In this document: one piece after another, positions 1 to 17,275 of the stretch
Layout of the letters: each line of letters opens with the position of its first letter
Position numbering within the stretch: the first letter of the stretch is position 1
From: Amycolatopsis methanolica 239
GTDB taxonomy: Bacteria > Actinomycetota > Actinomycetes > Mycobacteriales > Pseudonocardiaceae
Assembly: GCF_000739085.1 (NCBI RefSeq)
Contig: NZ_CP009110.1
Span: 2,480,001-2,544,000 of the forward strand
Direction: 5' to 3'
Length of the DNA stretch: 64,000 nt
Made by a program: the position numbers and the translations under genes
The notes under the pieces: model-generated
Seen by the model: the letters and a program-made list of their open reading frames with translations, nothing else
The model's database searches: none
Told to the model about the DNA's origin: nothing

Positions 1-210
1 GACGGCCACCACGTCGTCCGGCTGCGCGACGATCCGGGCGAGGGTGCCGTCGGCGGGCGCCTCGACCTCCATGTCGACCTTGTCGGTGGCCACCTCGCAC
101 ACGACCTCGCCCGCGCGGACCTCGTCCCCTTCGGACTTGTGCCAGGTCACCAGCGTGCCCTCGGTCATGGTCATCGACATCTTCGGCATGACCAGCGGCG
201 CTTCCTGCAT
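1..210 (-). CDS. E2 lipoyl-domain acyltransferase, N-terminal part (runs off window)
   Basis: Seventy residues of the N-terminal lipoyl domain of a 2-oxoacid or acetoin dehydrogenase E2 (dihydrolipoamide acyltransferase) are visible; the rest lies beyond base 1. The lipoylated lysine sits in TDKVDME at residue 44, after the PKMSMTMTEG strand. The ATG shares one base with the stop of the E1 beta gene (TGATG), so the two are translationally coupled. E2 takes the acyl group from E1 onto lipoamide and passes it to CoA. Acyl specificity cannot be read from this domain; the acetoin type is preferred because the E1 alpha is AcoA-like. Confidence 0.85.
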   Translation of the reverse strand, partial: MQEAPLVMPKMSMTMTEGTLVTWHKSEGDEVRAGEVVCEVATDKVDMEVEAPADGTLARIVAQPDDVVAV

Positions 211-1214
211 CACCACCTCCGCACCAGGTCCGTGGCCGCCCGCACGATGTCGCCGGCCTGCGGCACCGCGGCCCGCTCCAGTTGCGGCGCGTACGGGATC
301 GGCACGTCGAGCCCGCACAGCCGGGCGATCGGCGCGCGCAGGTGGCCGAACGCGGGGGATTCGCCGATGGTCGCGGCGATCTCGGCCATGAACCCGGCCG
401 TCTTCGGCGCTTCCTGCACCAGCAACGCGCGCCCGGTGCGGATCACGTCGTCCACGATCGGCTGCGCGTCGAGCGGTTTGAGCGTGCGCGGGTCGATCAC
501 CGACACGTCGATGCCGTCCGCGGCCAGCTGTTCCGCCGCCTCCAGCGCACGCGACACCATCACCCCGGTCGCCACGATGGTCAGGTCCGCGCCGGTCCGG
601 CGCACGGCCGCCTCGCCCAGCCGGGCTGGCGTGGCCGCCTCGGGCACGGGGCCGCTCTGCTTGTAGAGCAGCTTGTGCTCCAGCACGATCACCGGGTTCG
701 GATCGTCGATCGCCGCCAGCAGCAGGGTTTTCGCGTCGGCCGGGGTGGCCGGCATGACCACCTTCAGCCCGGGCACGTGCGCGAACCACGCCTCCAGGCT
801 CTGCGAGTGCTGCGCGGCGGCGCCGGTGCCGGAGCCGGTGGGCGCGCGCAGCACCATCGGCACGGTCGCCGCGCCGCCCAGCATGAAGTGGATCTTCGCG
901 GCCTGGTTGACGATCTGGTCCATGGCCTGCGCGGTGAAGTCGGAGAACTGGATCTCCACCACCGGCCGCATCCCGGCGAGCGCGGCCCCCACCGCCGCGC
1001 CCACGATGCCCAGCTCGCTGATCGGGGTGTCCCGGATCCGTTCCTCGCCGAAGCGGTGCACGAGGTCGCCGGTGACGCCGAAGGCGCCGCCGTAGGTGCC
1101 GACGTCCTCACCGAGCAGGAACACCCGCTCGTCGGCCGTCATCGCCTGGGCCAGCGCCTCGCGCACGGCCTCGGCGTAGGTGAGGGTTCGGGTTTGTTCC
1201 GCCGCCGCGGTCAT
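210..1214 (-). CDS. E1 beta subunit, acetoin/2-oxoacid dehydrogenase type
   Basis: A 334-residue transketolase-family beta subunit with the expected pyrimidine-binding half ([13 protein letters not shown], then [11 protein letters not shown]) and the C-terminal transketolase domain ([11 protein letters not shown]). Length and motifs fit AcoB/PdhB/BkdB. With E1 alpha it forms the ThDP-dependent decarboxylase or acyloin-cleaving component in the cytosol. The ATG overlaps the E1 alpha stop by ATGA, and the stop overlaps the E2 start. The neighbours are a reductoisomerase-like dehydrogenase and a PTS, not branched-chain amino acid genes, which argues against a BCKDH role. Family assignment is secure; the substrate is inferred. 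Confidence 0.9.
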
Positions 1215-2173
1215 TTCGCGTACACCGCCTCGGTCAGCGAGTCCGCCGAGGCGTCCGGCGCGGCGTTGGCGGCGCGGATCGCCGCCCGCACCCGCTCGCG
1301 GGCTTCGTTCCGGCAGGCCTGGATTTCCTGCTCTCCCAGCGTGTTCGCGACCCGTTGCTCGAACCGGGCGATTGGGTCGCGTTCGCGCCACTGCTCGATC
1401 TCTTCGCGGGTGCGGTAGAGGTTCTTGTCGCTCTTGGAGTGACCCTTCCAGCGGTAGGTGGTCGCCTCGACCAGCGTGGGGCCCTCGCCCGCGCGGGCGC
1501 GCGCCACCGCGTCGGCCACCGCGTCGTGCACCGCCTGCGGGTCGTTGCCGTCCACCGTCACGCCCGGAATGCCGTAGGCGGTGGCGCGTTCGGACAGCTG
1601 CTTCACCCGGAACGCGCGGCTGACCGACATGGACATGCCGTAGTGGTTGTTCTCGCACACGAACACCACCGGCAGGTCCCAGATCGCGGCCAGGTTGACC
1701 CCTTCGTGCCAGGCGCCCTCGTTGACCGCGCCGTCGCCGAAGAAGCTGACCACGACCTCCTGCCCGCCGCGCATCCGCACCGCCAGCCCCGCGCCCGCCG
1801 CGATCGGCACCCCGCCGGCGACGATGCCGTTCGCGCCGAGGTTGCCGGTCGCCACGTCGGCGATGTGCATCGACCCGCCCCGGCCGCGGCAGTAGCCGGT
1901 CTCCTTCGCCAGCAGCTCGGCCATCATCTCGTCCAGCCGCGCGCCCCTGGCGATGCAGTGTCCGTGGCCGCGGTGGGTGGAGGTGATGTAGTCCCCTTCG
2001 GACAGTGCCAGGCAGGCGCCCACCGGCACCGCTTCCTGCCCGATCGACAGGTGCATGGTGCCGTGCATGAGCCCGCGCGCGAACAGGTCGTCCACCGCTT
2101 CTTCGAATCGCCGGATCGTCCACATGGTGAGCAGCGCCTCGCGGGCCGGTCCGGCGTCGCCGATCAGATCCAT
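1211..2173 (-). CDS. E1 alpha subunit, AcoA-like ThDP-dependent dehydrogenase
   Basis: A 320-residue E1 alpha. [27 protein letters not shown] and [12 protein letters not shown] are the signature blocks of acetoin dehydrogenase alpha, and the ThDP/Mg motif runs GDGAVNEG to CENN around residues 150-175. The family cleaves acetoin to acetyl-lipoamide plus acetaldehyde, or decarboxylates pyruvate. It starts 11 nt after the upstream dehydrogenase stop and overlaps E1 beta by 4 nt. AcoA-like sequence beside a DXP-reductoisomerase-like enzyme suggests that the acyloin cleaved here could be a 1-deoxyketose; that step is inference. Confidence 0.9.
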
Positions 2174-2184
2174 CGTCGTCCCCT

Positions 2185-3486
2185 TCACGCCGGAACCAGG
2201 TCCCGCACCGGCTCGCCCTGCAGGAGCCGGTCCTGCAGGCGCCGCAGGGACGCGATCGTGGTGGTCTCGTCGACGGCGACGTCCGCGGCGGTCAGCACCG
2301 TGCCGGCGGGCACGTCGCGCAGCACGCGGGCGCCGCTGACCAGGCCGAGCGGCACGTGGCCGCCCGCGCGGGCCGCCTGGGCGGAGTCGGTGACGCCGTA
2401 GACGGTCCCGCCGCCGATGCCGTCGACCAGTTCGCCCTTCGCCAGGTCCCGCTTCGCCACCGCCAGCACCTCGGCGTTCCACGCGACGGGCGCGAGGCTG
2501 GGGGTGCGGTCGAGCACGGCCTGAGCGACGGACAGCGGCGCTTCGACGCTCGCCAGGTGGTAGGGCCGGTAGAAGGTGTAGTACGGGCCGGGACCCATGC
2601 CCAGGTAGGCCATTTCCGCCACGACCACCGGGTCGTCGCTGTGGCCGACGACGAACACGCCCGGCGCGACCGGCCCCGTGCAGTAGTCGACCACGCCGGG
2701 TTCCGGCAGCTGCCCGCCGTCGGCCTCGGGACGGAAGATCCGGTTCAGATCGTCCACAGTGGAGTACGGACCGGTCATGCCACGGCGGCTCACCTTCAGG
2801 TCGGCGCCGTTGGCGAGGGCGGCCATCTCGATCATGGTCTTCGAGCCGTCCACGAAGCTGGCGAGCATGTGCGGGTTCATGCCCTTCGCGGCGGCCTCCG
2901 CCGCGACCGAGTCCGGCGTGGCGGCCGGGTCTAGCGGGTTGTTCTTGCCCTTCCCGGCGCACACGACCGTGAAACCGATGTCGCGGACGTAGTTGACGAG
3001 CGCCTTGCACTCCACGGGTTCGTCGCCGCGGCACACCGAGTAGACGCGGCCGAGTCCGGCGGCCATCTTCGACAGCAGCAGGCCGACGGTGACGTCGCAC
3101 TCCACGTTGAGCAGCGCGATGTCCTTGCCCGCCAGCAATCCGGCGAACGCGACCCGGGCGCCGACCTCGGGGACGCCGCTGGCGTCCACGATCACGTCGA
3201 CCGGCAGGCGGGTCAGCGCCAGCGCGTCGTCCACCACGACCGCCTGTCCCAGTTCCACCGCGGCCGCCAGGTCACCCTCGGTCCGGACGTCCGCGCGCCC
3301 GGCCCGCTCGAAGGCCAGCACCCCGCGCTCCGGGGCGATGTCGGCGATCGCGGCGACCTCCATGCCGTCGATCCGGGCGGCCTGCACGACGAAACCCAGC
3401 CCCATCTGGCCGGCGCCCACCAGTCCGATGCGGACCGGGCGGCCCACTTCGCGTTCGCGGGCCCGCAGCCGATCGGCGTAGCTCAT
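2185..3486 (-). CDS. DRL-like NAD(P)-dependent dehydrogenase/reductoisomerase with C-terminal SAF domain
   Basis: A 433-residue protein. The N-terminal Rossmann fold carries [11 protein letters not shown] (GAGQMG at residues 24-29), as in homoserine-dehydrogenase-type NAD-binding domains. The central region has [10 protein letters not shown] and [10 protein letters not shown], and a SAF-like domain lies near residues 350-420 ([18 protein letters not shown]). This architecture matches the DXR-like (DRL) family known from Brucella, which interconverts DXP and MEP. I chose the ATG at 3486 because GGAAGG lies 8 nt upstream; a longer frame upstream would translate the operator palindrome. It is first in an operon with E1 alpha/beta and E2. 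A different polyol phosphate substrate is possible. Confidence 0.8.
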
Positions 3487-3504
3487 CTCGACACCTTCCC
3501 CGTC

Positions 3505-3518
3505 TGCACAAATGTGCA
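3505..3518. promoter_or_regulatory. Operator palindrome 1 of the PTS/DRL regulon
   Basis: TGCACA-AA-TGTGCA is a perfect 6-bp inverted repeat with a 2-bp centre, 19 bp upstream of the DRL start codon. The same motif recurs at 3587 and, slightly relaxed, at 6132, in the promoter regions of the system. The local SorC-family protein is the obvious candidate binder; this is inferred from repetition and position. Confidence 0.7.
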
Positions 3519-3586
3519 CGTCATATGCACTTCAGTGATTTCTTGGTACCACGCTCGCGATAACCAGCACAACCCTTCAGGTTGTC

Positions 3587-3600
3587 TGCACATTTGTGCA
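3587..3600. promoter_or_regulatory. Operator palindrome 2 of the PTS/DRL regulon
   Basis: TGCACA-TT-TGTGCA is a perfect inverted repeat, extended outward by GTTGT on the left and CAAC on the right. It lies about 100 bp upstream of the DRL start, just upstream of a possible minus-strand -35/-10 pair (TTGTGC, 18-bp spacer, TACCAA). Two sites about 82 bp apart, roughly eight helical turns, would allow cooperative binding or looping. Confidence 0.7.
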
Positions 3601-3611
3601 CAACGTGGAAC

Positions 3612-3647
3612 AAAAAGGGGGCCGGCTCCCGCAAGGAAGCCGGCCCC
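3612..3647 (-). terminator. Rho-independent terminator of the PTS permease operon
   Basis: Read on the minus strand, a 10-bp stem (GGGGCCGGCT paired with AGCCGGCCCC, 10-nt loop) is followed by TTTTT. It begins 17 nt after the GutM stop and ends before operator 2, so it insulates the DRL operon from readthrough of the PTS genes. Confidence 0.85.
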
Positions 3648-3663
3648 GTGCCGCGCCGGGAAT

Positions 3664-4053
3664 TCAGGCGGCCGCGCGTTGTCCCGCGGTCAGGCGGGAC
3701 ACCATCGTCAGCGCGTCGGCGGCGGCCTTGGCCACGGCCTTCGACGGCGCCCGTTCGGTGAGCGTGCCGAGTGGCCCGGTCAGCTCCGGGCGTTCCCGGA
3801 ATCGGGCGAACACCGACGCGCCCTCCATCGCCAGTGCCCTGGTGACGGCGTTCCGCCGCCGGTCGACCACCAGCAGCACCACCGCGCCCCGCAGCTTGCC
3901 CTTGGCCCGCCCGGTCACCAGCAGCACGCCGCCGCGGTTCTCCTCCGCCGCTACCTGGTTGACCACGCCCGCGTACCGCAGGTGCTGCCGGTAACTGAAG
4001 TAGCCGGCCACCACGAACCCGGCGACCAGGATCGCGGCGGCCTGCCAGGTCAC
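3664..4053 (-). CDS. gutM: GutM-like glucitol-operon accessory protein
   Basis: A 129-residue protein with one N-terminal membrane segment (AAAILVAGFVVAGYF), then YRQHLRYAG and a soluble domain with RAKGKLRGAVVLLVVDRR. This is the layout of the GutM family, described as an activator in the E. coli glucitol operon. The GTG start overlaps the EIIA stop (GTGA), making it the last gene of the permease operon. No GutR partner is present; a SorC-family regulator lies nearby instead, so GutM may act on the permease or on that regulator. Family call is fairly secure; mechanism unknown. Confidence 0.75.
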   Translation of the reverse strand: MTWQAAAILVAGFVVAGYFSYRQHLRYAGVVNQVAAEENRGGVLLVTGRAKGKLRGAVVLLVVDRRRNAVTRALAMEGASVFARFRERPELTGPLGTLTERAPSKAVAKAAADALTMVSRLTAGQRAAA

Positions 4054-4427
4054 GTCGTGCTCCCGCCGCTGAGCGTCAGCGTCGCCCCGGCGGCAGGCAG
4101 CGACACCGTTCCCCGGCCGTGCACCGCGCCGGGCAGCAGCGTGGTGCCCTCGTCAGGGTTGAGGTAGACCACGATGTGCCCCAGCGTCTGCAGGTTCTCG
4201 TGGGCGCGCTCGCCGACCGCGGTCAGTTCGATCTCCGCGTCGCCGAGCCGGAAGATGTCGCCGACGCGCACCTCGCGTTCCGGCTTGGCGGCGGGGGAAT
4301 GCACGACGCTGACGCTTTCCAGCGCGTCCGGGATCGGATCGGCGTAGAGGATCACCACCCCGCCGTCCACCATGTCCTGCGCCTCCTCGCCGGCCCGCAG
4401 GATCGTGCTCTCGTAGTACACCGTCAT
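4050..4427 (-). CDS. PTS glucitol/sorbitol-family EIIA
   Basis: A 125-residue cytosolic EIIA. With the ATG at 4427, preceded by GAGG, the histidine of VVHSPAA falls at residue 43, the phosphorylated position in the E. coli glucitol EIIA. ELTAVGERAHENLQTLGH is the second conserved block. An upstream in-frame GTG at 4436 would add three residues but has the GAGG directly abutting it. It accepts phosphate from the HPr encoded across the divergent promoter and passes it to EIIBC. It overlaps GutM by 4 nt. Confidence 0.9.
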   Translation of the reverse strand: MTVYYESTILRAGEEAQDMVDGGVVILYADPIPDALESVSVVHSPAAKPEREVRVGDIFRLGDAEIELTAVGERAHENLQTLGHIVVYLNPDEGTTLLPGAVHGRGTVSLPAAGATLTLSGGSTT

Positions 4428-4437
4428 CGTCGACACC

Positions 4438-5463
4438 TCACAGTCCGAAGCTCGCGCCCCAGGCGATGATGACCGCCAGCGGCGCCGTGATCAACCGGCT
4501 GATCAGCACCGCGGGGGTGCCGACCGCGACGGTCTCGGGTTTCGCCTCGCCCAGCGCGAGGCCGACCGGGATGAAGTCGCAGCCCACCTGCCCGTTGATC
4601 GCGAACAACGTCGGCAGCGCGTACTGCACGGGCAGCGCACCGATCGCGATCTGGCTGCCCATCAGCGTGCCGACCACCTGCGCGATCGCCGCGCCCGGCC
4701 CGAGGATCGGGGACAGGAACGGCAGGGACACCACGAGCGAGATCACGACCAGCCCGAGCGGGTTGCTCGCGATCGGGGACAGCACGTTCGCGATCCCGCG
4801 GGCGATCCCGGTGTAGTTGACGATGCCCAGCAGCAGGCTGACGTAGGCCATGAACGGCAGGATCGTGGTGAGCGTCAGCTCGACGGTCTGCCTGCCCGAG
4901 GCCAGCATCGTGTTCACGAACGAGCCGACGCCCGAGCCGAACTTCACGAACACGCCGGACACCGAGTCGAACGCGCGCCCGAACCCCGTCGACTGCCCGC
5001 CGGTGACCGTCGCCGCGACGTCCCGGGCCGACGGGCGTTCGGCCCGCGGGGGCACCTTCGGTGGCACGGTGCCCGTCTCGCTGTCCGCCTCGGTCACCTC
5101 CTTGACGCCGACGGCGGAGACGAACAGCTCCTCGGTGATGAACTTCGCCAGCGGCCCGCCCGGCGCGCCGGGGTAGACGTCCACAGTGGGCAGTCCCTTG
5201 CGCGGGTACACGCCGATCCGGGCGGTGCCACCGCAGTTGATCACCGCGGCGACCACCTCGTCGTCCGGCACCGACGTGTGGAACCCGTCCACCGCCTCGG
5301 CGCCGGTGAGCTCGGCGATCCGCGCGGCCACCGGGTGGATGCCGCCGCCGGTCACGGACAGGACCTTGTCGCGCTTGCCGTCGGCCCGCAGCAGCAGGCC
5401 CTTGCCCCAGCCGCCTTCGCCGGGGCGGACGAATACCGCGCGGGTGGTGTGGGTTTCGGTCAT
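4438..5463 (-). CDS. PTS glucitol/sorbitol-family EIIBC
   Basis: A 341-residue membrane protein. The N-terminal EIIB domain contains the phosphocysteine motif INCGGTARIGVYP with Cys77, then a linker rich in Pro and Glu, then a C-terminal EIIC2-like membrane domain with LTTILPFMAYVSLLLGIVNYT and the cytosolic loop SPILGPGAAIAQV. It receives phosphate from EIIA and phosphorylates the polyol as it enters. Start and stop are tightly packed: ATGA overlap with the EIIC gene and 10 nt to the EIIA ATG. Family specificity is for polyols; the actual sugar alcohol is not set by sequence alone. Confidence 0.9.
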   Translation of the reverse strand: MTETHTTRAVFVRPGEGGWGKGLLLRADGKRDKVLSVTGGGIHPVAARIAELTGAEAVDGFHTSVPDDEVVAAVINCGGTARIGVYPRKGLPTVDVYPGAPGGPLAKFITEELFVSAVGVKEVTEADSETGTVPPKVPPRAERPSARDVAATVTGGQSTGFGRAFDSVSGVFVKFGSGVGSFVNTMLASGRQTVELTLTTILPFMAYVSLLLGIVNYTGIARGIANVLSPIASNPLGLVVISLVVSLPFLSPILGPGAAIAQVVGTLMGSQIAIGALPVQYALPTLFAINGQVGCDFIPVGLALGEAKPETVAVGTPAVLISRLITAPLAVIIAWGASFGL

Positions 5464-6095
5464 TTCGCACCCGCCTTGGCCGCCTCGAACTGCCGGTCGA
5501 AGTCCGCGAACACTTCGGTCCGCCCGGTCCGCTTGATCATGAACGCGGTGATCCGCTCGGTGACCACGCCGCGGATGAAGATCACCACGATGCCGACCAG
5601 GAAGTACCGCAGAGCCAGCGGCACCGTCGACTGCCCGAGCTGGGCCACGCCGTTGGCCACGCCCAGCCAGACGAACAGCTCGCCGGCGTTGGCGTAGGGG
5701 AAGAACGTCGTCACCGGGTGCACGAACGACACCGCGGAGTCGTAGAACGCGGGCTTGTGCCGCTCCGGCAGGAACCGGCCGAACGAGTAGGCCATCGGGT
5801 TGGTCAGCATGAGCACGGCCAGCACCGGCATGATCGTGTAGCGGGTGATCCACCACCGCGCCGACCACCGGACGGCTCTGGTGACGCGCTGCTCACCGAT
5901 GAACGTGGTGATCGCGTACATCGCGGTCAGCAGGACGATCAGGGTGGGCAGAATGCCGGTCACCAGGCTCACGAACTGCTCGCCGGAGGCGTTGAACAGC
6001 CCGATGAAGTGGCTGCCGAGCCACTCGAGGACACCGAGGGGACCGGAACTGGACCCGGTGTCCGCCTGCTGCGCCATTACAGCAAGCTCCTCCAT
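5460..6095 (-). CDS. PTS glucitol/sorbitol-family EIIC
   Basis: A 211-residue integral membrane protein with several hydrophobic segments (FVSLVTGILPTLIVLLTAMYAI, RYTIMPVLAVLMLTNPMAYSFGRFLP, YFLVGIVVIFIRG) and the family motif FGRFLPERHKPAFYDSAVSF. It forms the translocation channel with EIIBC. The ATG at 6095 has a near-consensus AAGGAGG six bases upstream, so it is preferred over the internal Met at 6077. First gene of the permease operon, transcribed away from HPr, with operator 3 about 37 bp upstream of its start. Confidence 0.9.
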   Translation of the reverse strand: MEELAVMAQQADTGSSSGPLGVLEWLGSHFIGLFNASGEQFVSLVTGILPTLIVLLTAMYAITTFIGEQRVTRAVRWSARWWITRYTIMPVLAVLMLTNPMAYSFGRFLPERHKPAFYDSAVSFVHPVTTFFPYANAGELFVWLGVANGVAQLGQSTVPLALRYFLVGIVVIFIRGVVTERITAFMIKRTGRTEVFADFDRQFEAAKAGAK

Positions 6096-6131
6096 ATTTT
6101 CCTCCTTGTCGGCCCCCTGAACAAACGCGTC

Positions 6132-6145
6132 TGCACATAAGTGCA
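6132..6145. promoter_or_regulatory. Operator palindrome 3 in the divergent PTS promoter
   Basis: TGCAC-ATAA-GTGCA, a relaxed copy of the motif at 3505 and 3587, sits between the EIIC gene and the HPr gene. A plus-strand promoter, TTCACG (6153-6158), 17-bp spacer, TAACAT (6176-6181), begins just downstream, so a bound regulator could control both directions. Assignment to the SorC-family protein is inference. Confidence 0.65.
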
Positions 6146-6222
6146 AAGCTTCTTCACGTTTGACAGTGATGTGTGTAACATGCCGGTCCAGCGGGTCACA
6201 ACCCCCAACGCGAAGGAGCGAC

Positions 6223-6486
6223 ATGCCTGAGATCAAAGTCCGGATCGCCTCGCCGGTCGGCCTGCACGCCCGCCCCGCGAGCCAGTTCGTCAAGGCCGCG
6301 GCCCGGCACGGCGGGCCGGTCTCCATCGCGCGGCCGGGCGCCGAACCCGTCGACGCCCGCAGCATGCTTTCGGTGCTGAGCCTGGCGATCGGGCACGGCG
6401 AGGAGGTCGTGATCACCGCCGAAGGGGACAACGCCGACGCGACGCTCGCCGAGCTGTCCCGGCTGGTGTCCACCGCGGACGCCTGA
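6223..6486 (+). CDS. ptsH: HPr phosphocarrier protein
   Basis: An 87-residue HPr with the active-site histidine at position 15 (SPVGLHARPAS) and a serine at 47 in the regulatory-loop position (DARSMLSVL). AAGGAG precedes the ATG. It carries phosphate from Enzyme I to the local EIIA. The stop overlaps the start of the SorC-family gene (TGATG). Many actinobacteria encode general HPr elsewhere; its place here suggests a dedicated phosphorelay. Confidence 0.93.
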   Translation: MPEIKVRIASPVGLHARPASQFVKAAARHGGPVSIARPGAEPVDARSMLSVLSLAIGHGEEVVITAEGDNADATLAELSRLVSTADA

Positions 6487-7427
6487 TGCCACCGCCCCGC
6501 GAACAGCAGCTGCTCGTCAAGGCGGCGCGCCTGTACTACGAGGAAGGCCGGTCGCAGCACCAGATCGCCGAGACGCTGGGCGTGAGCCGCTCCAGCGTGT
6601 CCCGGATGCTGACCGCGGCGCGGGAACGCGGCATCGTCCAGATCCGCATCAACGACCCGGCCGGGCGGGACCTGGACCTCGAAGGCGAGCTCGCGGCGCG
6701 GTTCGGGTTGCGCGACTGCCGGGTCGCGGAGAACGCCGCGGGGGAGCGCCCGTTGCCGCGCGTCGGTGAGCTCGGCGCGCGGTGGCTGCTGGAGAACGTC
6801 CACTCCGGACAGCGGGTCGGGGTGTCGTGGGGGCGCAGCCTGCAGGCGGTCGTGCAGCACGTGCCCGAGGAAAGCGCGCTCGACGTCGAGGTGCTGCCGC
6901 TCGTCGGCGGCCTGTCGTCGGTGGAATCGGCGATCAGCGGCGAGGAGCTGGTCCGCGACCTGGCCGCGCGACTCGGCGGCCGGTTCCAGCTGCTGCACGC
7001 GCCCGCGTTGTTGACTTCCCGGGCGGGACGGGACATCCTGCTCGCCGAACCGTCCATCCGGGACGCTCTGGACCGGGCGCGCAAGGTGCACGTCGCGGTC
7101 GTCGGCATCGGCAGCGTCGGGGTCGGGTCCTCGGCGGCCCTGCTCACGGCGATGGAGCTGACGCCGGAGGAGCGCGCGGAGTTCGAGGGCCACCACCCGG
7201 TGGGGGACTTCTGCGCGCGGTTCTTCGACGCCGACGGGCGCCCGGTGCCGGGGCCGGTCGACGACCGGGTGATCAGCACGTCGTTCGCCGACCTGGCCGG
7301 CATCCCCACGGTGGCGGGTGTCGCGGCCGGGGCGGAGAAGGCGCGCGGCACGCTGGGCGCGCTGCGCACCGGGGTCCTCGACGTCCTGATCTGCGACCAG
7401 TCGCTGGCCGGCGCCCTGCTCGACTGA
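6486..7427 (+). CDS. SorC-family sugar-binding transcriptional regulator
   Basis: A 313-residue protein with an N-terminal helix-turn-helix (HQIAETLGVSRSSVSRML, about residues 20-40) and the SorC/DeoR-type sugar-phosphate-binding domain (VGVSWGRSLQAVV, VEVLPLVGG, VGIGSVG, ICDQSLAGALL). Such proteins sense phosphorylated sugars. It lies between HPr and Enzyme I and is the only regulator in the system, so it probably binds the palindromes at 3505, 3587 and 6132. The effector would be the phosphorylated PTS substrate; that is inferred. Confidence 0.9.
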   Translation: MPPPREQQLLVKAARLYYEEGRSQHQIAETLGVSRSSVSRMLTAARERGIVQIRINDPAGRDLDLEGELAARFGLRDCRVAENAAGERPLPRVGELGARWLLENVHSGQRVGVSWGRSLQAVVQHVPEESALDVEVLPLVGGLSSVESAISGEELVRDLAARLGGRFQLLHAPALLTSRAGRDILLAEPSIRDALDRARKVHVAVVGIGSVGVGSSAALLTAMELTPEERAEFEGHHPVGDFCARFFDADGRPVPGPVDDRVISTSFADLAGIPTVAGVAAGAEKARGTLGALRTGVLDVLICDQSLAGALLD

Positions 7428-7439
7428 AAGGTGTTGCGC

Positions 7440-9047
7440 ATGCTGGGAACGAGGTTGTCCGGGGTCGCGGTGAGCCCGGGACGCGCGAGTGGTCCCGTGG
7501 TGCGGGTCGCCGAGCCGCTGGGCGAACCCCCGCGCACCCCGGCGCCCGCCGACCCGGCCGCCGACGCGGCCCGGATCGCGCCAGCCGCGGCGGCCGTCGC
7601 GCGGCGGCTGGAGGAACTCGCCGCCACCGCGGAAGGTGAAGCGGCGGACATCCTGTTCACCACCGCGGCCATAGCGAACGACCCCGGCCTGGTCGCCGAG
7701 GCCGAGCGGCTGGTCACTGTCGAAGGCGTGCCCGCGCCGCGCGCGGTGCACGAGGCCGCGAACGGGTTCGCCCGCTCGCTGGCCGCCGCGGGCGGGTACC
7801 TCGCCGAGCGCGTGCGGGACATCCAGGACGTGCGGGACCGCATCGTCGCCGAACTGCTCGGCGTCGAGCCGCCCGGGGTGCCGGAGCTGGCGTCGCCGAG
7901 TGTGCTGGTCGCCCGCGATCTCGCGCCTGCCGACACGGCGGGGCTCGATCCGGCGAAGGTGCTGGCGCTGGTGACCGAGCAGGGGCCGACCAGCCACACC
8001 GCGATCCTGGCGCGGGCGCTGGGAATCCCCGCCGTCGTCGCGGTGCGGGGGTTGCTGGCCTCCGGTGCCGAGGCGCTCGTCGTGGACGGCGACACCGGCG
8101 TCGTCGAACCGGCCGACCCGCGCGGGCCGGTGGTGGTCGCGGAGCGGCAGGCGGCGGCGGAGTGGAACGGCGTGGGCGCGACCGCGGACGGGCACCGGGT
8201 CCGGATCCTCGGCAACGTCGGTTCAGTGGCGGACGCGCGGGCGGCCGCCGAGGCCGGCGCCGAGGGGATCGGCTTGTTCCGCACGGAGTTCTGCTACCTG
8301 GACGCGCCGTCCGAGCCTTCGGTGTCGGAGCAGCGTGCGGCGTATGCGGACGTGCTCGCACCGTTCGCCGGGAAGCCGGTGGTGGTGCGGACGCTGGACG
8401 CGGGGGCGGACAAACCGCTGGCGTTCCTGGCCCCGGAGCCGGAGCCGAACCCCGCTCTGGGGGTGCGGGGCGTGCGGGTCGCGTTCGCCCGGCCGGCGGT
8501 GCTGGACCGCCAGCTCGAAGCGATCGCCGCCGCGGCCGCCGAGTCGGGTGCGGAGGTGTCGGTGATGGCGCCGATGGTGGCGACCGCCGCGGAGGCGGCG
8601 TGGTTCGCGGAGCGGGCGCGGGCCGCCGGGATCGCCCGGGCGGGGGTGATGATCGAGGTGCCCGCGGCGGCGCTGGCGGCGCGGGAGATCCTGGAGGTGG
8701 TGGATTTCGTGTCCGTGGGCACCAACGACCTCGCGCAGTACACGTTCGCCGCCGACCGCCAGCTCGGCGCGGTGGCCGCGTTGAACGACCCGTGGCAGCC
8801 GGCGCTGCTCCGGTTGATAGCCCTGATCGGCGAAGCGGCGCGGGAGGCCGGCAAGCCCGCCGGGGTGTGCGGGGAAGCGGCGGCGGACCCGCGCTTGGCC
8901 CGCGTGCTGACCGGTCTCGGGATGACGAGCCTGTCAATGACCGCGGCGGCCATCCGCCCGGTCGGAGCCACCCTGGCAACGGCAACGTTGACCGACTGCG
9001 AGGCGGAGGCCCGCCACGCGCTGGGGACGTTCGGGGCGAGCACCTGA
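7440..9047 (+). CDS. ptsI: PTS Enzyme I (phosphoenolpyruvate-protein phosphotransferase)
   Basis: A 535-residue Enzyme I: N-terminal phosphohistidine domain with GPTSHTAILARALGIPAVV (active His186), then the PEP-binding barrel with GIGLFRTEFCYLD and VSVGTNDLAQYTFAADR. The ATG at 7440 is preceded by GAAAGG at 8-nt spacing; a GTG at 7431 is an alternative. Typical Enzyme I is about 570 residues, so this one is slightly short. It charges the adjacent HPr from PEP. The operon HPr-regulator-EI makes the permease self-sufficient for phosphate. Confidence 0.93.
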   Translation: MLGTRLSGVAVSPGRASGPVVRVAEPLGEPPRTPAPADPAADAARIAPAAAAVARRLEELAATAEGEAADILFTTAAIANDPGLVAEAERLVTVEGVPAPRAVHEAANGFARSLAAAGGYLAERVRDIQDVRDRIVAELLGVEPPGVPELASPSVLVARDLAPADTAGLDPAKVLALVTEQGPTSHTAILARALGIPAVVAVRGLLASGAEALVVDGDTGVVEPADPRGPVVVAERQAAAEWNGVGATADGHRVRILGNVGSVADARAAAEAGAEGIGLFRTEFCYLDAPSEPSVSEQRAAYADVLAPFAGKPVVVRTLDAGADKPLAFLAPEPEPNPALGVRGVRVAFARPAVLDRQLEAIAAAAAESGAEVSVMAPMVATAAEAAWFAERARAAGIARAGVMIEVPAAALAAREILEVVDFVSVGTNDLAQYTFAADRQLGAVAALNDPWQPALLRLIALIGEAAREAGKPAGVCGEAAADPRLARVLTGLGMTSLSMTAAAIRPVGATLATATLTDCEAEARHALGTFGAST

Positions 9048-13752: not shown

Positions 13753-14411
13753 CGCGTCACCGCCGCCACCGCGGCTGGAAACCGCCCGCGGCACACCGAA
13801 GCCACCGCGCGCGCGTCCGCCATCGTGTCCACATCGGACAACTCGGCGAGGTCGCGCGGCACCACGCCACGCCGGGACAGGGCCGCGTGCGTGCGGTCGC
13901 CGGTGTCCGATCGTGACATGGGCACGTGTTCGAGCACGCGGGCCGTCGCCGGGTCCCGCAGGCCCAGGGCCCACCAGCCGCCGTCGGCCGCGCGGCCCAG
14001 CACCGCCTGGTGCGCGGCGAGGTCCGCGGCCGCCGCCGCGAGCAGCTCCGGACGGACCTGCGGGGTGTCCATGCCGATCTGCAGCACGGGCAGGCCCGGG
14101 TGCCGGGCGGCGGTGTCGGCGTGCACGTTCGCCAGTCGTTCCCCGAAGGGCACGCCGCGCTGACCCAGGACCGTCGTCCGCGTCAGCGCCCGCCGGATCT
14201 CCGCCGACCGCGCTGCCGCGGCGAAATCCCCGGTCACCGCGACCACGGGCACCGCCCCGGGCGTCACGGCGACAGCATCGAGCGTGTCCAGCAACGCGGC
14301 GGCGGCGATCTCGGCGGCCTGGTCCGGCGACGCGGGCGGGCACAGCCGGGTCTTCGCGAACCCGGGCACCGGCGCCTTGGCTACCACCAGCAGGCAGAAC
14401 CGGGCGGTCAT
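13749..14411 (-). CDS. TIGR04282-type transferase (DUF2064)
   Basis: A 220-residue protein matching the TIGR04282 family: LVVAKAPVPGFAKTRLCP at the N-terminus, LQIGMDTPQVRPELL and LGRAADGGWWALGLRD. The fold is that of nucleotide-diphospho-sugar transferases. It overlaps both neighbours by 4 nt, so it is co-translated with the GT2 upstream and the methyltransferase downstream. Family call is good; no substrate is known. Confidence 0.8.
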   Translation of the reverse strand: MTARFCLLVVAKAPVPGFAKTRLCPPASPDQAAEIAAAALLDTLDAVAVTPGAVPVVAVTGDFAAAARSAEIRRALTRTTVLGQRGVPFGERLANVHADTAARHPGLPVLQIGMDTPQVRPELLAAAAADLAAHQAVLGRAADGGWWALGLRDPATARVLEHVPMSRSDTGDRTHAALSRRGVVPRDLAELSDVDTMADARAVASVCRGRFPAAVAAVTR

Positions 14412-15070
14412 CCGAGCAGCACCCGCGCCATGTCGCGGACCGCGCCCACGGTCCCGCGCACCGAACCCGACACCTTCGACCGGCCCGCGGACCGCGGCCG
14501 GTAGACCACGTCGCACTCGCGCACCACCCACCCGGCGCGTCCCGCCCGGATCAGCAGTTCCAGCGGATATCCGGACGCGCGGTCGGCCACACCGAGCCCG
14601 AGCAGGGCCTCCCGGCGGGCCACGCGGACCGGCGCGATGTCGTGCACCGGCACGCCCTGCAGCCGCAGCAGCGCCGACAACACGGCGTTGGCCGCGCGGG
14701 CGTGCCACGGCCAGGCGCCGGGAACCGGCCGCCGCCGCCCGGCCGCCAGGTCCGCCTCGCCGCGCTCGACCACCCCGGCGAGCACGGTCAGCGCGGCGGG
14801 GTCGAGCGAGCCGTCGGCGTCCAGGACGGCGACGAGGTCGCTGGTCGCGTGCGCCAGACCGGTGTGCACGGCCGCGCCGTAACCGCGGCGCGGTTCGCTG
14901 ACCACCTTGGCGCCCGCGGCAGCGGCGACCTCGGCCGAACCGTCGGTCGACCCGTTGTCGACCACGATCGCCCGGCAGCCGGGCGGCAGCGCCGACAACA
15001 CGACGGGCAGGGAACCGGACTCGTCGAGACAGGGCAGGATCACATCCACGACCACGGACGGTATGTCCAC
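14408..15070 (-). CDS. Family 2 glycosyltransferase
   Basis: A 220-residue GT2 with VILPCLDESGSLPVVL, the nucleotide-binding VVDNGSTDGSAEVA, the DXD-type LDADGSLD and a C-terminal VYRPRSAGRSKVSGS patch typical of dolichol-phosphate-mannose-synthase-like enzymes without a membrane tail. First gene of a three-gene minus-strand operon. Probably transfers a sugar from a nucleotide donor to a lipid or protein carrier; acceptor unknown. Confidence 0.85.
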   Translation of the reverse strand: MDIPSVVVDVILPCLDESGSLPVVLSALPPGCRAIVVDNGSTDGSAEVAAAAGAKVVSEPRRGYGAAVHTGLAHATSDLVAVLDADGSLDPAALTVLAGVVERGEADLAAGRRRPVPGAWPWHARAANAVLSALLRLQGVPVHDIAPVRVARREALLGLGVADRASGYPLELLIRAGRAGWVVRECDVVYRPRSAGRSKVSGSVRGTVGAVRDMARVLLG

Positions 15071-15216
15071 GGTGGAGAGTTGAGAACCGTTGCGGCCCTT
15101 ACCGACTCATGACGCCTTGACAATCCTTACCGACTCCTGACGGATCGGCGCGAGCGCCGCCGTCGGCACGGCCGGCGGGTTACGGTGCGGCGAAGCCGGC
15201 GCGGAAGGGGACACGA

Positions 15217-16569
15217 GTGCGGGTGGACGCGGTGCGGGCGCCGGAGCGCAGCGGCCGCCGGGCGGACCTGGTGACCGTGGTGTGCGCGGGCGCGCTGGTC
15301 GCGGTGGCCGTCGCGGTCGGCGCCTACCTCAACCGGCCCGGTTCCGGGGTCACCCTCCTCGCACCGGCCGCGCCGCTGTTCGGGGTCTGGCTGCCGCACG
15401 CCGGCCCGGGCACGGCGGTCGCCGTCATGGTGGCGTTCGCGGTGGTTGGCTGGGGGCCGTCGCTCGCGCGGACGATGGCGTGGTGGCCGCTGCTGGCGGG
15501 GTCCTACCTCGCGGCGCTGGCCTGGACGTTCGCGCTCGCGCTCGTCGACGGCTGGCAACGAGGCCTCGCCCGGCGCCTGAGCAACCCCAACGAGTACCTG
15601 CGCGAGGTGCCCGGCATCCACGACATCCCGGCCATGCTGCGCGGGTTCACCGCCCGGATCCTCGACTTCCGGCCGGATTCGTGGACCACCCACGTGTCCG
15701 GGCACCCGCCGGGCGCGACCCTGGTGTTCGTGTGGCTCGACCGCCTCGGCCTGTCCGGCGGGGGATGGGCCGCCGTGGTGTGCGTGCTCGCCGGGTGCCT
15801 GGCGGTGCCCGCGGTCGCGGTGACGCTGTCCGCGCTGGGCCGGGCAGCCGCGGCGCGCGCGACCCTGCCGTTCCTGGTGCTCTTCCCGGGCGCGGTGTGG
15901 ATCGGCGCCTCCGCGGACGGGCTGTTCGCCGGGGTCACCGCCGCGGGCATCGCCCTGCTCGCGCACGCGGCGCTGGCCTTCCGGACCGGCCGGCGCTCGG
16001 CGGTCCCGGCGGCGCTGTCCGGCGGCGCGGTGCTGGGGTTCGGGATCTTCCTGTCCTACGGGCTCGTCCTGCTCGGGACGGTCGCGCTCGCGGTGGCGAT
16101 AGCCGGGCGGAGCCTCACCCGCACACTGCCGCTGGCGGTGGCCGGCGCCCTCGCCGTCACCGGGGTGTTCGCGCTCGCCGGGTTCTGGTGGCTCGACGGC
16201 TACCACCTCGTCGTCGAGCGGTACTACCAGGGCATCGCCGCCGAGCGGCCGTGCACCTACTGGGTGTGGGCGAACCTGGCGTGCCTGGTGATCGCGACTG
16301 GGCCCGCCGTCATTGCCGGGGTGCGGCGCTCGGTGCTCGTCCGGCGGTGGCGTGATCCGGTGCTGCTGCTGGTCGCCGGGGCCGCGCTGGCCGTCGCGCT
16401 GGCCGACCTGTCCGGGTTGTCCAAGGCCGAGACGGAGCGGATCTGGCTACCATTCCTGGTGTGGCTGGTGCCCGCGGTGTCGCTGCTGCCGGGCCGGCGC
16501 CGGGTCTGGCTGGCCGGCCAGGCCGTCACGGCGCTCGCGGTGAACCACCTCGTGCTGACGTACTGGTAG
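15217..16569 (+). CDS. Polytopic membrane protein, GT-C-like
   Basis: A 450-residue protein with about ten hydrophobic helices. A conserved-looking external loop (HDIPAMLRGFTARILDFRP, then THVSGHPPGATLVF) precedes the later helices (GVFALAGFWWLDGYH). Topology and the neighbouring GT2 suggest a lipid-linked sugar transferase of the GT-C fold, but no acidic DD/DE catalytic pair after the first helix is obvious. The GTG start follows a 146-bp gap from the divergent GT2 gene, and an OmpR-type regulator starts 7 nt downstream, so the three plus-strand genes probably form one operon. Confidence 0.7.
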   Translation: MRVDAVRAPERSGRRADLVTVVCAGALVAVAVAVGAYLNRPGSGVTLLAPAAPLFGVWLPHAGPGTAVAVMVAFAVVGWGPSLARTMAWWPLLAGSYLAALAWTFALALVDGWQRGLARRLSNPNEYLREVPGIHDIPAMLRGFTARILDFRPDSWTTHVSGHPPGATLVFVWLDRLGLSGGGWAAVVCVLAGCLAVPAVAVTLSALGRAAAARATLPFLVLFPGAVWIGASADGLFAGVTAAGIALLAHAALAFRTGRRSAVPAALSGGAVLGFGIFLSYGLVLLGTVALAVAIAGRSLTRTLPLAVAGALAVTGVFALAGFWWLDGYHLVVERYYQGIAAERPCTYWVWANLACLVIATGPAVIAGVRRSVLVRRWRDPVLLLVAGAALAVALADLSGLSKAETERIWLPFLVWLVPAVSLLPGRRRVWLAGQAVTALAVNHLVLTYW

Positions 16570-16576
16570 GGCGGAC

Positions 16577-17275
16577 GTGACTGGAACAGGCCACATTCTC
16601 GTCGTGGACGACGACGAGACGGTGCGCGACGTCGTGCGGCGCTACCTCGAAGCGGGCGGCTTCACCGTCGAACTCGCCGGGAACGGCGACGAGGCGCTGC
16701 GCCGCTTCGCCGGGCGCGAACCCGACCTCGTCGTGCTCGACGTGATGATGCCCGGGATGAGCGGCCTGGAGGTGTGCCGGCGCATGCGGGAACGCACCGC
16801 GGTGCCGGTCGTCCTACTCACCGCGCTCGGCGAGGAGGAGGACCGCATCGCCGGCCTGCGCCTGGGCGCCGACGACTACGTGACCAAACCGTTCAGCCCG
16901 CGCGAACTCGCGCTGCGGGTGATGTCGGTGCTGCGGCGGGCGCGGCTGCCCGCGCGCGCACCGGCGCCCGACGTGCTCACCGACGGCGGGCTGCGGCTGC
17001 GGCTGAGCGCGCACCAGGCGACCCTCGACGGGCGGCCGCTGTCCCTGACCACCCGCGAGTTCGACCTGCTCGCGTTCTTCCTCGCCCAGCCCGGCACCGC
17101 GTTCTCCCGCGAGGAACTGCTGGAGAAGGTGTGGGGCTGGAACTTCGGCGACCAGTCCACGGTGACCGTCCACGTGCGCCGGTTGCGCGAGAAGATCGAG
17201 GACGACCCGGCCAGGCCCACGCGGATCGCGACGGTGTGGGGTGTCGGCTACCGCTACGAACCGGTGCGGCCATGA
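16577..17275 (+). CDS. OmpR/PhoB-family response regulator
   Basis: A 232-residue regulator: receiver domain with acidic pocket (ILVVDDDETVRD), phosphoacceptor in VVLDVMMPGMSG and conserved Lys in DDYVTKPFSPREL, then a winged-helix output domain (LTTREFDLLAFFL, TVHVRRLREKIEDDP, VWGVGYRYEP). The GTG start is 7 nt after the membrane protein; its stop overlaps the kinase ATG. Confidence 0.93.
   Translation: MTGTGHILVVDDDETVRDVVRRYLEAGGFTVELAGNGDEALRRFAGREPDLVVLDVMMPGMSGLEVCRRMRERTAVPVVLLTALGEEEDRIAGLRLGADDYVTKPFSPRELALRVMSVLRRARLPARAPAPDVLTDGGLRLRLSAHQATLDGRPLSLTTREFDLLAFFLAQPGTAFSREELLEKVWGWNFGDQSTVTVHVRRLREKIEDDPARPTRIATVWGVGYRYEPVRP

Follow-up and report, generated by a model that had tools for sequence, protein, structure and literature searches.

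A putative methylerythritol catabolic and salvage operon around a DXR-II-like enzyme in Amycolatopsis methanolica 239

Proposed pathway and gene content

The window of this study is a 64-kb stretch of the 7.24-Mb genome of the soil actinobacterium Amycolatopsis methanolica 239 (G000:C1:2480001-2544000), of which positions 1-9047 hold two divergent gene units: HPr-SorC-EI on the plus strand, and EIIC-EIIBC-EIIA-GutM followed by DRL-E1alpha-E1beta-E2 on the minus strand. A glucitol-type phosphotransferase system (PTS) is thus joined to a DRL-type oxidoreductase and to subunits of a thiamine diphosphate-dependent dehydrogenase complex (together, the module), which probably serve as an inducible operon for the catabolism and salvage of 2-C-methylerythritol. 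In the proposed pathway, the PTS, with its own HPr and Enzyme I (EI), would import 2-C-methylerythritol and deliver 2-C-methylerythritol 4-phosphate (MEP) inside the cell. DRL would then turn MEP into 1-deoxyxylulose 5-phosphate (DXP), an early step of terpene-precursor synthesis run backwards; E1alpha/beta would transfer a two-carbon unit from DXP to thiamine diphosphate and free glyceraldehyde 3-phosphate; and E2, with an E3 encoded elsewhere in the genome, would yield acetyl-CoA and NADH. In actinobacteria, the IspD-type enzyme of the operon may divert part of the MEP to CDP-methylerythritol (CDP-ME) for isoprenoids, and SorC may sense a pathway intermediate and govern both units through TGCACN4GTGCA sites. 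This route from methylerythritol through MEP and DXP had been suggested in a preliminary description of the stretch. The IspD-like and IspF neighbours, the DXR-II residues, the exchange of the PTS for kinases and transporters, the E3 and lipoyl synthase neighbours, the genomes in which DRL is the only DXR found, and 1-deoxyketose chemistry argue for it, short of proof of its substrate, direction and products, which we infer from gene context.

The genes, with their order and families, are as follows.

1..213, minus strand: N-terminal end of E2 with the lipoyl domain; the whole gene is at L002:10957-12213 (PF00364, PF02817 and PF00198 on P0005)
210..1214, minus strand: E1 beta (PF02779/PF02780; Transket_pyr, 1.2e-46; NF006667 above cut-off)
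1211..2173, minus strand: E1 alpha, thiamine diphosphate dehydrogenase (PF00676, E1_dh, 3.1e-89)
2185..3486, minus strand: DRL / DXR-II-type oxidoreductase (PF21135, DRL_cat, 5.8e-63; SAF, PF08666, 2.6e-08)
3664..4053, minus strand: GutM-like protein (PF06923, 2.9e-12)
4050..4436, minus strand: glucitol-type PTS EIIA (PF03829, 3.8e-22)
4438..5463, minus strand: glucitol-type PTS EIIBC (PF03612/PF07663; EIIBC-GUT_N, 3.9e-55; NF049924 above cut-off)
5460..6095, minus strand: glucitol-type PTS EIIC (PF03608, EII-GUT, 2.1e-75; NF049923 above cut-off)
6220..6486, plus strand: HPr phosphocarrier (PF00381, 1e-23)
6486..7427, plus strand: SorC/DeoR-type sugar-binding regulator (PF04198, Sugar-bind, 2.3e-61)
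7431..9047, plus strand: PTS Enzyme I (TIGR01417, 342.6 bits with a cut-off of 341.7; PEP-utilizers_C, 5.8e-79)
L002:10232-10948, outside the window, same strand as E2: IspD-like gene P0004 (PF01128, 5.9e-45)
L002:9895-10224, outside the window, same strand as E2: 110-aa zinc-ribbon-like gene

All genes earlier named for the PTS with its own HPr, EI and SorC regulator, and for the adjoining operon of DRL, E1 alpha, E1 beta and E2, are present with Pfam scores far over the cut-offs, including EIIC, EIIBC and EIIA of the Gut families. The extent given to the operon had to be corrected: the named genes belong to it, but it does not end at the edge of the window, since E2 is followed by the IspD-like gene and then by the zinc-ribbon-like gene. 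Among the NCBIfam models for the PTS, NF049923, TIGR00821 and NF049924 are above cut-off, and TIGR00825 (328.3 of 458.7) and gutA (64.0 of 189.55) are below it, as are the NF053881 and LsrR models on the SorC regulator. The EIIC start codon was picked by eye. The GutM-side and DRL-side genes were taken as two units because a G+C-rich hairpin with a T run (assigned by eye) lies between GutM and DRL. Besides the EI of the module, the host genome has two strong PF02896 places and a weak one; it also has one DXR-I place, one DRL, a DXS and four IspD-family places above cut-off, of which the operon copy scores best and the place at 6665708 second.

Family of the DRL oxidoreductase

The nearest relatives of this DRL are from Amycolatopsis, with 97% identity to that of A. 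tucumanensis. It matches the Brucella DXR-II structure (PDB 3upy) with phmmer at 4.2e-97 over residues 9-422, the NAD-binding part being covered (E about 1e-97 for 3upy/3upl), and has the domain set of the DXR-II family, namely NAD-binding, DRL_cat and SAF. The equivalents of K191, K193, T229 and R320 are kept (in GKGKNN, KTM and RPYH); two positions differ, with Ala at the equivalent of E174 and Tyr at that of F178. The four kept residues are named as substrate-site or dimer residues of DXR-II, and the T229 position is non-Thr in DLO1 and DLO2 (both from PMC3847144).

The DRL alignment has 178 rows, some loci being overlapping copies. The exact nine-residue pattern of the Amycolatopsis DRL is found in 109 rows, and 58 further rows are off by one position (24 with Phe at Y322, 18 with Ser at T229, 16 with Asn at K228); L053 is alone in its own one-position deviation, and the DLO-like rows L129-L136 deviate at two or more of the nine positions. 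For the tree, near-duplicates and overlapping copies were removed by hand beforehand, and a quick maximum-likelihood reconstruction was performed with 136 rows. The 54 rows with both PTS and E1 cluster into few groups in it, with 7 changes as compared with 24.8 under shuffling, and the nine DLO-like rows fall on one side of a branch with a support of 70, in a tree that has no row of any assayed DXR-II. The Amycolatopsis DRL is, as judged from its sequence, DXR-II-like and not a DLO; a DLO-type (non-DXR) identity was rejected from the residues together with this tree.

E1/E2 complex

The E1 alpha had been called AcoA-like. The subunit set fits this, E1alpha, E1beta and a lipoyl E2 standing together in one operon as in the acetoin dehydrogenase complex; the model scores lie nearest pyruvate dehydrogenase (PDH), and the module rows group apart. 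The best model of E2 is also a PDH one (TIGR01349, 239 bits, below cut-off). A loop GHS[KR]SD is found in 68 of the 75 E1alpha rows (deduplicated from 94); the seven rows without it are six non-module E1s and L159, which is truncated (L181, a longer copy of it, does have the loop). Ten plasmid loci of rhizobia and Priestia likewise encode an E1alpha with this loop, which is absent from the five E1 paralogues of the host genome. A careful E1alpha tree separates the module rows (with L159) from the six others with 96/78 support, which is modest evidence given the few outgroup rows and the midpoint root. A phosphorylated substrate might be what the conserved basic residue of the loop accommodates.

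The formation of 1-deoxyketoses is credited to both PDH and acetoin dehydrogenase (PMC3424233, in a passage and in the title of its reference 39), so that the proposed DXP cleavage would be the reverse of known chemistry. An E3 gene adjoins E1/E2 in L180 (named by eye), L201, L204, L207, L209, L210 and L212, and a lipoyl synthase gene accompanies them in L204 only; because of these neighbours, E1/E2 looks like a full oxidative complex.

DXS, DXR-I and IspG in genomes with DRL

Genomes were searched by handle, and some were counted under two handles. DXR-I was matched in 35 of 80 handles, in three of them (G017, G070, G200) weakly and in part; a full-strength DXS match was found in 13 of 30, and IspG in 53 of 55. 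No DXR-I match was obtained in four distinct genomes that have DXS and IspG, namely G024, G215 (same coordinates as G397), G400 and G401, all of them drafts (G024 97% and G215 96% complete). Because DXS and IspG are present there and DXR-I is unmatched, DRL is the only DXR found in these four. Their DRLs are nested in a 67-row group of the tree that holds most of the PTS+E1 rows, and the DRL of G024 is surrounded by PTS EII, SorC, E1alpha, E1beta and E2. DXR-I was likewise unmatched in Actinomarina G398 and G399, one with the module and one with IspD-DRL alone.

These four genomes bear on the question of whether the true substrate is a different branched or deoxy polyol; examples would be 2-methylthreitol, a linear deoxypentitol and apiitol (2-C-hydroxymethyl-erythritol). 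DRL would then perform a reductoisomerase-type step on the phosphate of that polyol, and E1/E2 would give another acyl-CoA. The EII sequence indicates a polyol without telling which one, and contacts are altered in the IspD-like copies; however, no DXR other than DRLs of this clade was found in the four genomes, the IspD and IspF neighbours indicate methylerythritol phosphates, and xylulose 5-phosphate from apiitol would need no E1/E2. We regard another polyol as unlikely.

The direction of the pathway is touched by two other genomes, G087 (99% complete) and G119 (96%), in which neither DXR-I nor IspG was matched and DXS-family matches were weak only (about 5e-7). In G087 (L118), GutM-EIIC-EIIBC-EIIA-DRL, three genes of a second PTS, and SorC-E1-E1-E2-EI are found, and in G119, EIIBC, EIIA and DRL lie within the 3.5 kb stretch seen. 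With DXS, DXR-I and IspG missing, the module cannot serve MEP-type isoprenoids there. Catabolism is favoured since these two genomes lack DXS, DXR-I and IspG and the Amycolatopsis host has its own DXS, DXR-I and another IspD.

The same evidence makes a biosynthetic module quite improbable, that is, one in which E1/E2 replaces DXS (pyruvate or acetyl-CoA plus glyceraldehyde 3-phosphate giving DXP), DRL and IspD follow, and the PTS only salvages methylerythritol. An IspD-like gene does lie within the operon, a mutant E. coli PDH E1 permits DXP production (PMC3424233), and a full DXS match is missing in the module genomes G402, G403, G398, G017, G053, G237 and G026. Nevertheless, DXS is present in the module genomes G701, G704, G706-G708 and G404, and is also unmatched in six Actinomarina genomes without E1 at the DRL locus (G399, G723-G727). 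E1/E2 as a general replacement of DXS was rejected on these two grounds, module genomes with DXS on the one hand and loss of DXS without E1 beside DRL on the other.

In the Clostridia sample, DXS was found in 4 of 23 DRL genomes as compared with 47 of 57 tested genomes without DRL (Fisher p 7.6e-8, a value that ignores kinship), and IspG in all nine DRL genomes tested for it. An alternative source of DXP is likely in the DRL genomes that appear to lack DXS. As a separate observation, IspG (in some cases also DXR-I) but no strong DXS match was recorded in G053, G237, G026, G076, G098, G152 and G184, and in Clostridia G501, G474, G655 and others.

The IspD-like gene and other MEP-pathway neighbours

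P0004 carries the nucleotide loop and the HDxxRP, TPQ and N[IF]KxT motifs, and retains the equivalent of K213 and the TPQ threonine. Of 133 flank sets, 19 contain IspF. Sixteen of the 19 are actinobacterial, where the gene is often part of a canonical CarD-ispD-ispF locus, and the other 3 come from the 20 Clostridia regions, where it lies in or near the DRL locus.

IspD is related to the enzyme that activates ribitol, and the ribitol-5-phosphate cytidylyltransferase model gives P0004 a score of 90.9 bits, with a cut-off of 166. DRL and IspD might accordingly be thought to supply a cell-envelope polymer with CDP-methylerythritol or some other CDP-polyol, comparable to ribitol in teichoic acids, with E1/E2 an unrelated pyruvate dehydrogenase. 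This we hold very improbable: P0004 reaches 174.5 bits on the ispD model, no polymer genes were noticed beside the module, and E1/E2 are kept in the Rhizobium, Sinorhizobium, Aminobacter, Priestia and L180/L181 loci examined, where no IspD gene appeared among the annotations or tblastn matches listed. From the model scores, a teichoic-acid-type role of the IspD-like enzyme was not favoured.

Apart from this, freshwater actinobacteria carry an IspD-family gene without the nucleotide-binding loop (15 loci among L040-L074, e.g., L042:12589-13239). An intact IspD-like gene adjoins DRL there; in L052 and L053, the loop-less gene adjoins CarD. In freshwater loci such as L042, the data suggest that the copy by DRL is the working one. 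No Pfam family is above cut-off for the 110-aa zinc-ribbon-like protein, which is encoded near DRL or IspD in actinobacteria and two Clostridia regions (homologues in L003-L022, L035, L040-L053 in part, L067, L119, L127, L137, L181 and L186).

Spread and variants of the module

The set of close relatives (L003-L082) consists of the best 80 of 95 loci and is an uneven sample that contains near-copies. Within the flanks retrieved, PTS EII and E1alpha/beta are both present in 59 of the 80 loci, PTS only in 3, E1 only in 2 and neither in 16; because 59 hold both, the module is not a chance grouping. E2 is found in 58, SorC in 56, an IspD match in 56 and the zinc-ribbon protein in 32. Note that, in Microbacteriaceae (e.g., L023-L031), the IspD match is the canonical CarD-ispD-ispF gene and not a module copy. 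An even sample of the phylum, 396 genomes in all, had DRL_cat matches in 64, and 20 regions (19 genomes) from this sample gave 6 with PTS and E1, 1 with E1 only, 11 with neither and 2 below the DRL threshold. In the Clostridia sample, DRL was matched in 34 of 291 genomes, 23 of them strongly. For plasmids, 14 records were examined among the 40 matches listed of 111; 13 were counted (three unannotated ones being read by tblastn), and one record, with a Deinococcus gene situated in a polysaccharide locus, was excluded. These 13 loci, among the matches listed, comprise 1 with PTS and E1, 2 with PTS only, 9 with E1 only and 1 with neither. The survey of DRL-E1-PTS neighbourhoods called for earlier thus shows that the combination recurs in Actinomycetota, in a Rhizobium and in a Clostridia genome.

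Sugar-alcohol operons commonly contain genes of the EII, HPr, EI and SorC families, and one could read the locus as a conventional sorbitol-type PTS operon that also includes a spare PDH and a promiscuous oxidoreductase and is linked to MEP only by accident. That reading is hardly credible, since the combination is spread over several phyla and its E1alpha forms a distinct group with a distinct loop, and since the MEP-pathway neighbours recur and the palindromes are shared.

The variants are informative as to the proposed methylerythritol pathway. Rhizobium sp. L51/94 has GutM-EIIC-EIIB-EIIA-EI-SorC-DRL-E1-E1-E2; Sinorhizobium meliloti Rm41 has a sugar kinase and an ABC transporter with SorC-DRL-E1-E1-E2-LpdA-LipA; and Priestia aryabhattai has E1-E1-E2-LpdA-SorC-MFS-SorC-DRL-FGGY kinase, MFS being a major facilitator superfamily transporter. 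The PTS is replaced by sugar kinase and ABC transporter genes in L204, L207, L209, L210 and L212, and by an FGGY kinase and an MFS transporter in L201. A kinase, mostly with a transporter, substitutes for the PTS in rhizobia, Priestia and Aerophobota; a transporter and a kinase beside DRL-E1-E2 where the PTS is absent would fit a phosphorylated polyol as the DRL substrate. In the rhizobial L209, L210 and L212, DRL-E1-E2-LpdA is followed by a class II fructose-bisphosphate aldolase (about 14200-17270), which would fit a triose-phosphate product. A chemotaxis receptor gene also follows the operon in these three loci.

On a Ligilactobacillus salivarius plasmid (L202:12913-15572), fructose-6-phosphate aldolase and transketolase come after PTS-DRL in place of E1/E2. 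Starting from hydroxyacetone and glycolaldehyde, 1-deoxyxylulose has been prepared with fructose-6-phosphate aldolase (PMC8791446, section 14), and the reverse reaction could therefore split DXP. An aldolase-like match was also seen in L191 and L194. In place of E1/E2, the DRL-PTS genes of Clostridia L182, L183, L187 and L198 are followed by genes for a NagD-type phosphatase and for a glycerol-1-phosphate-dehydrogenase-like protein of the Fe-ADH_2 family, both families being checked on L182 only; nusB-xseA-xseB-ispA are next in L182 and L183 (by eye).

A second PTS set (galactitol-like EIIC, EIIB and EIIA, by eye) stands beside the module in L024-L026, L028, L029, L031, L039, L062 and L118; the set was recorded in loci of Cryobacterium and Salinibacterium as well as in L118, and its substrate may be a related polyol. 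In Actinomarina L047, L048 and L072, PTS and E1/E2 flank DRL where six relatives (L076, L077 and L079-L082, L081 being judged from its left flank) have IspD-DRL alone; the two kinds of DRL are non-sisters in the tree, which speaks against simple insertion.

Shared palindromes

Three palindromes in the window were taken as candidate operators.

3505..3518: TGCACAAATGTGCA, before DRL, proposed operator
3587..3600: TGCACATTTGTGCA, before DRL, proposed operator
6132..6145: TGCACATAAGTGCA, in the gap that separates EIIC from the divergent HPr gene, proposed SorC operator

With at most one mismatch, the palindrome TGCACWWWNGTGCA (TGCACN4GTGCA) occurs in the whole 64 kb only at 3505, 3587 and 6132, that is, in 6 rows (3 places, both strands) as compared with a mean of 0.10 expected; none of 100 shuffles reached 6. 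In L003, L004, L006 and others, counterparts of the 3587 and 3505 palindromes lie about 110 and about 30 bases before DRL, respectively. Of the 80 loci L003-L082, 23 have an exact TGCACN4GTGCA; most such sites closely precede EIIC or DRL, and some lie elsewhere (e.g., L012 at 5028, L016 at 12466, L057 at 3384). SorC is the presumed binder of these palindromes.

Discussion

Several points weigh against methylerythritol catabolism as the role of the module. The direction of the pathway, which is deduced from gene context, is one weak point: the DXR reaction is reversible with an equilibrium in favour of MEP, and the reverse reaction needs a pull. The passages of PMC8791446 on a reverse reaction concern HMGR. 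DXS is unmatched in many DRL genomes, some of them without PTS or E1 beside DRL, which the pathway does not explain; because some such loci lack PTS or E1, import of methylerythritol by the glucitol-type PTS would not be the whole answer. Where a second PTS adjoins, the glucitol-type PTS may not be the sole uptake route. The 20 Clostridia regions comprise 1 with PTS and E1, 7 with PTS only, 1 with E1 only and 11 with neither, and Listeria innocua has SorC-DRL-GutM-EIIC-EIIB-EIIA without E1/E2. The best model of E1alpha is that of PDH E1 (TIGR03182, 359 bits with a cut-off of 393.85). The score of P0004 on TIGR00453 is below the curated equivalog cut-off of 181.3 bits, hence our term IspD-like; it has Ile at the equivalent of T140 of E. 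coli IspD, which we take to be a MEP contact, and the equivalent of R157, present in P0004 and L003, is lost from most other module IspD-like copies.

Even so weighed, a polyol PTS operon of a familiar type with a new pathway inside is the reading that we consider likely. The preliminary description knew of no described pathway of this kind, and the open-licence PubMed Central literature covered agrees: among the best-ranked matches, no paper on methylerythritol as a carbon source or on an operon of this kind was found. DXR-II is known as an enzyme; its setting in a PTS-E1-E2 operon and its catabolic role appear undescribed in that literature. A catabolic role beside a PTS may explain why bacteria retain a second, seemingly redundant terpene enzyme.

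Possible, though doubtful as a whole, is a wider picture in which methylerythritol catabolism is widespread and undescribed and was the original role of many DXR-II. DRL (with the IspD-like enzyme in freshwater actinobacteria and Actinomarina) would then have been recruited later for isoprenoids and DXR-I lost; DXS-less hosts might draw isoprenoids from imported methylerythritol; and Ligilactobacillus and some Clostridia might split DXP by a fructose-6-phosphate-aldolase-like enzyme and not by E1/E2.

2-Methyltetrols are an abundant isoprene oxidation product in aerosol. If the pathway exists, it would be a bacterial sink for methylerythritol and 2-methyltetrols, tied to the isoprene cycle, and engineers would gain a transporter-based entry to the MEP pathway that bypasses DXS. 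Methylerythritol and its glucosides are found in plants (PMC11192765), and a cloud-water paper names 2-methyltetrols in its reference list only (PMC6529453).

Comparison with known systems

The module resembles the glucitol/sorbitol PTS operons (gut/srl) in EIIC, EIIBC, EIIA and GutM; unlike these, it has no classical sorbitol-6-phosphate dehydrogenase and brings its own HPr and EI, SorC, DRL and E1/E2. In the catabolism of autoinducer 2 (AI-2, Lsr system), a C5 methyl-ketone phosphate is converted to acetyl-CoA and a triose phosphate, and its regulator LsrR is of the SorC family; both features would be shared by the pathway proposed here. The Lsr system works with ABC transport, the kinase LsrK and the thiolase LsrF, whereas a PTS, DRL and a thiamine-dependent complex are found here. 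With the canonical MEP pathway (DXS-DXR-IspD), the intermediates DXP, MEP and CDP-ME would be common, but the proposed flux, which lacks the DXS-type decarboxylation, leads from MEP through DXP to acetyl-CoA and glyceraldehyde 3-phosphate.

The likeness to acetoin dehydrogenase and PDH lies in the subunit set E1alpha, E1beta and E2, both complexes being cited as forming 1-deoxyketoses (PMC3424233); the E1alpha loop is GHS[KR]SDxNLYR here as compared with other loops in the five paralogues of the host, and the proposed substrate is phosphorylated. DXR-II (Brucella, PDB 3upl/3upy) shares with the present DRL its domains and K191, K193, T229 and R320, and is described as an alternative enzyme of isoprenoid biosynthesis (PMC3847144), whereas the Amycolatopsis DRL, whose host also has DXR-I, stands in a PTS-E1-E2 operon and is proposed to work in the reverse direction.

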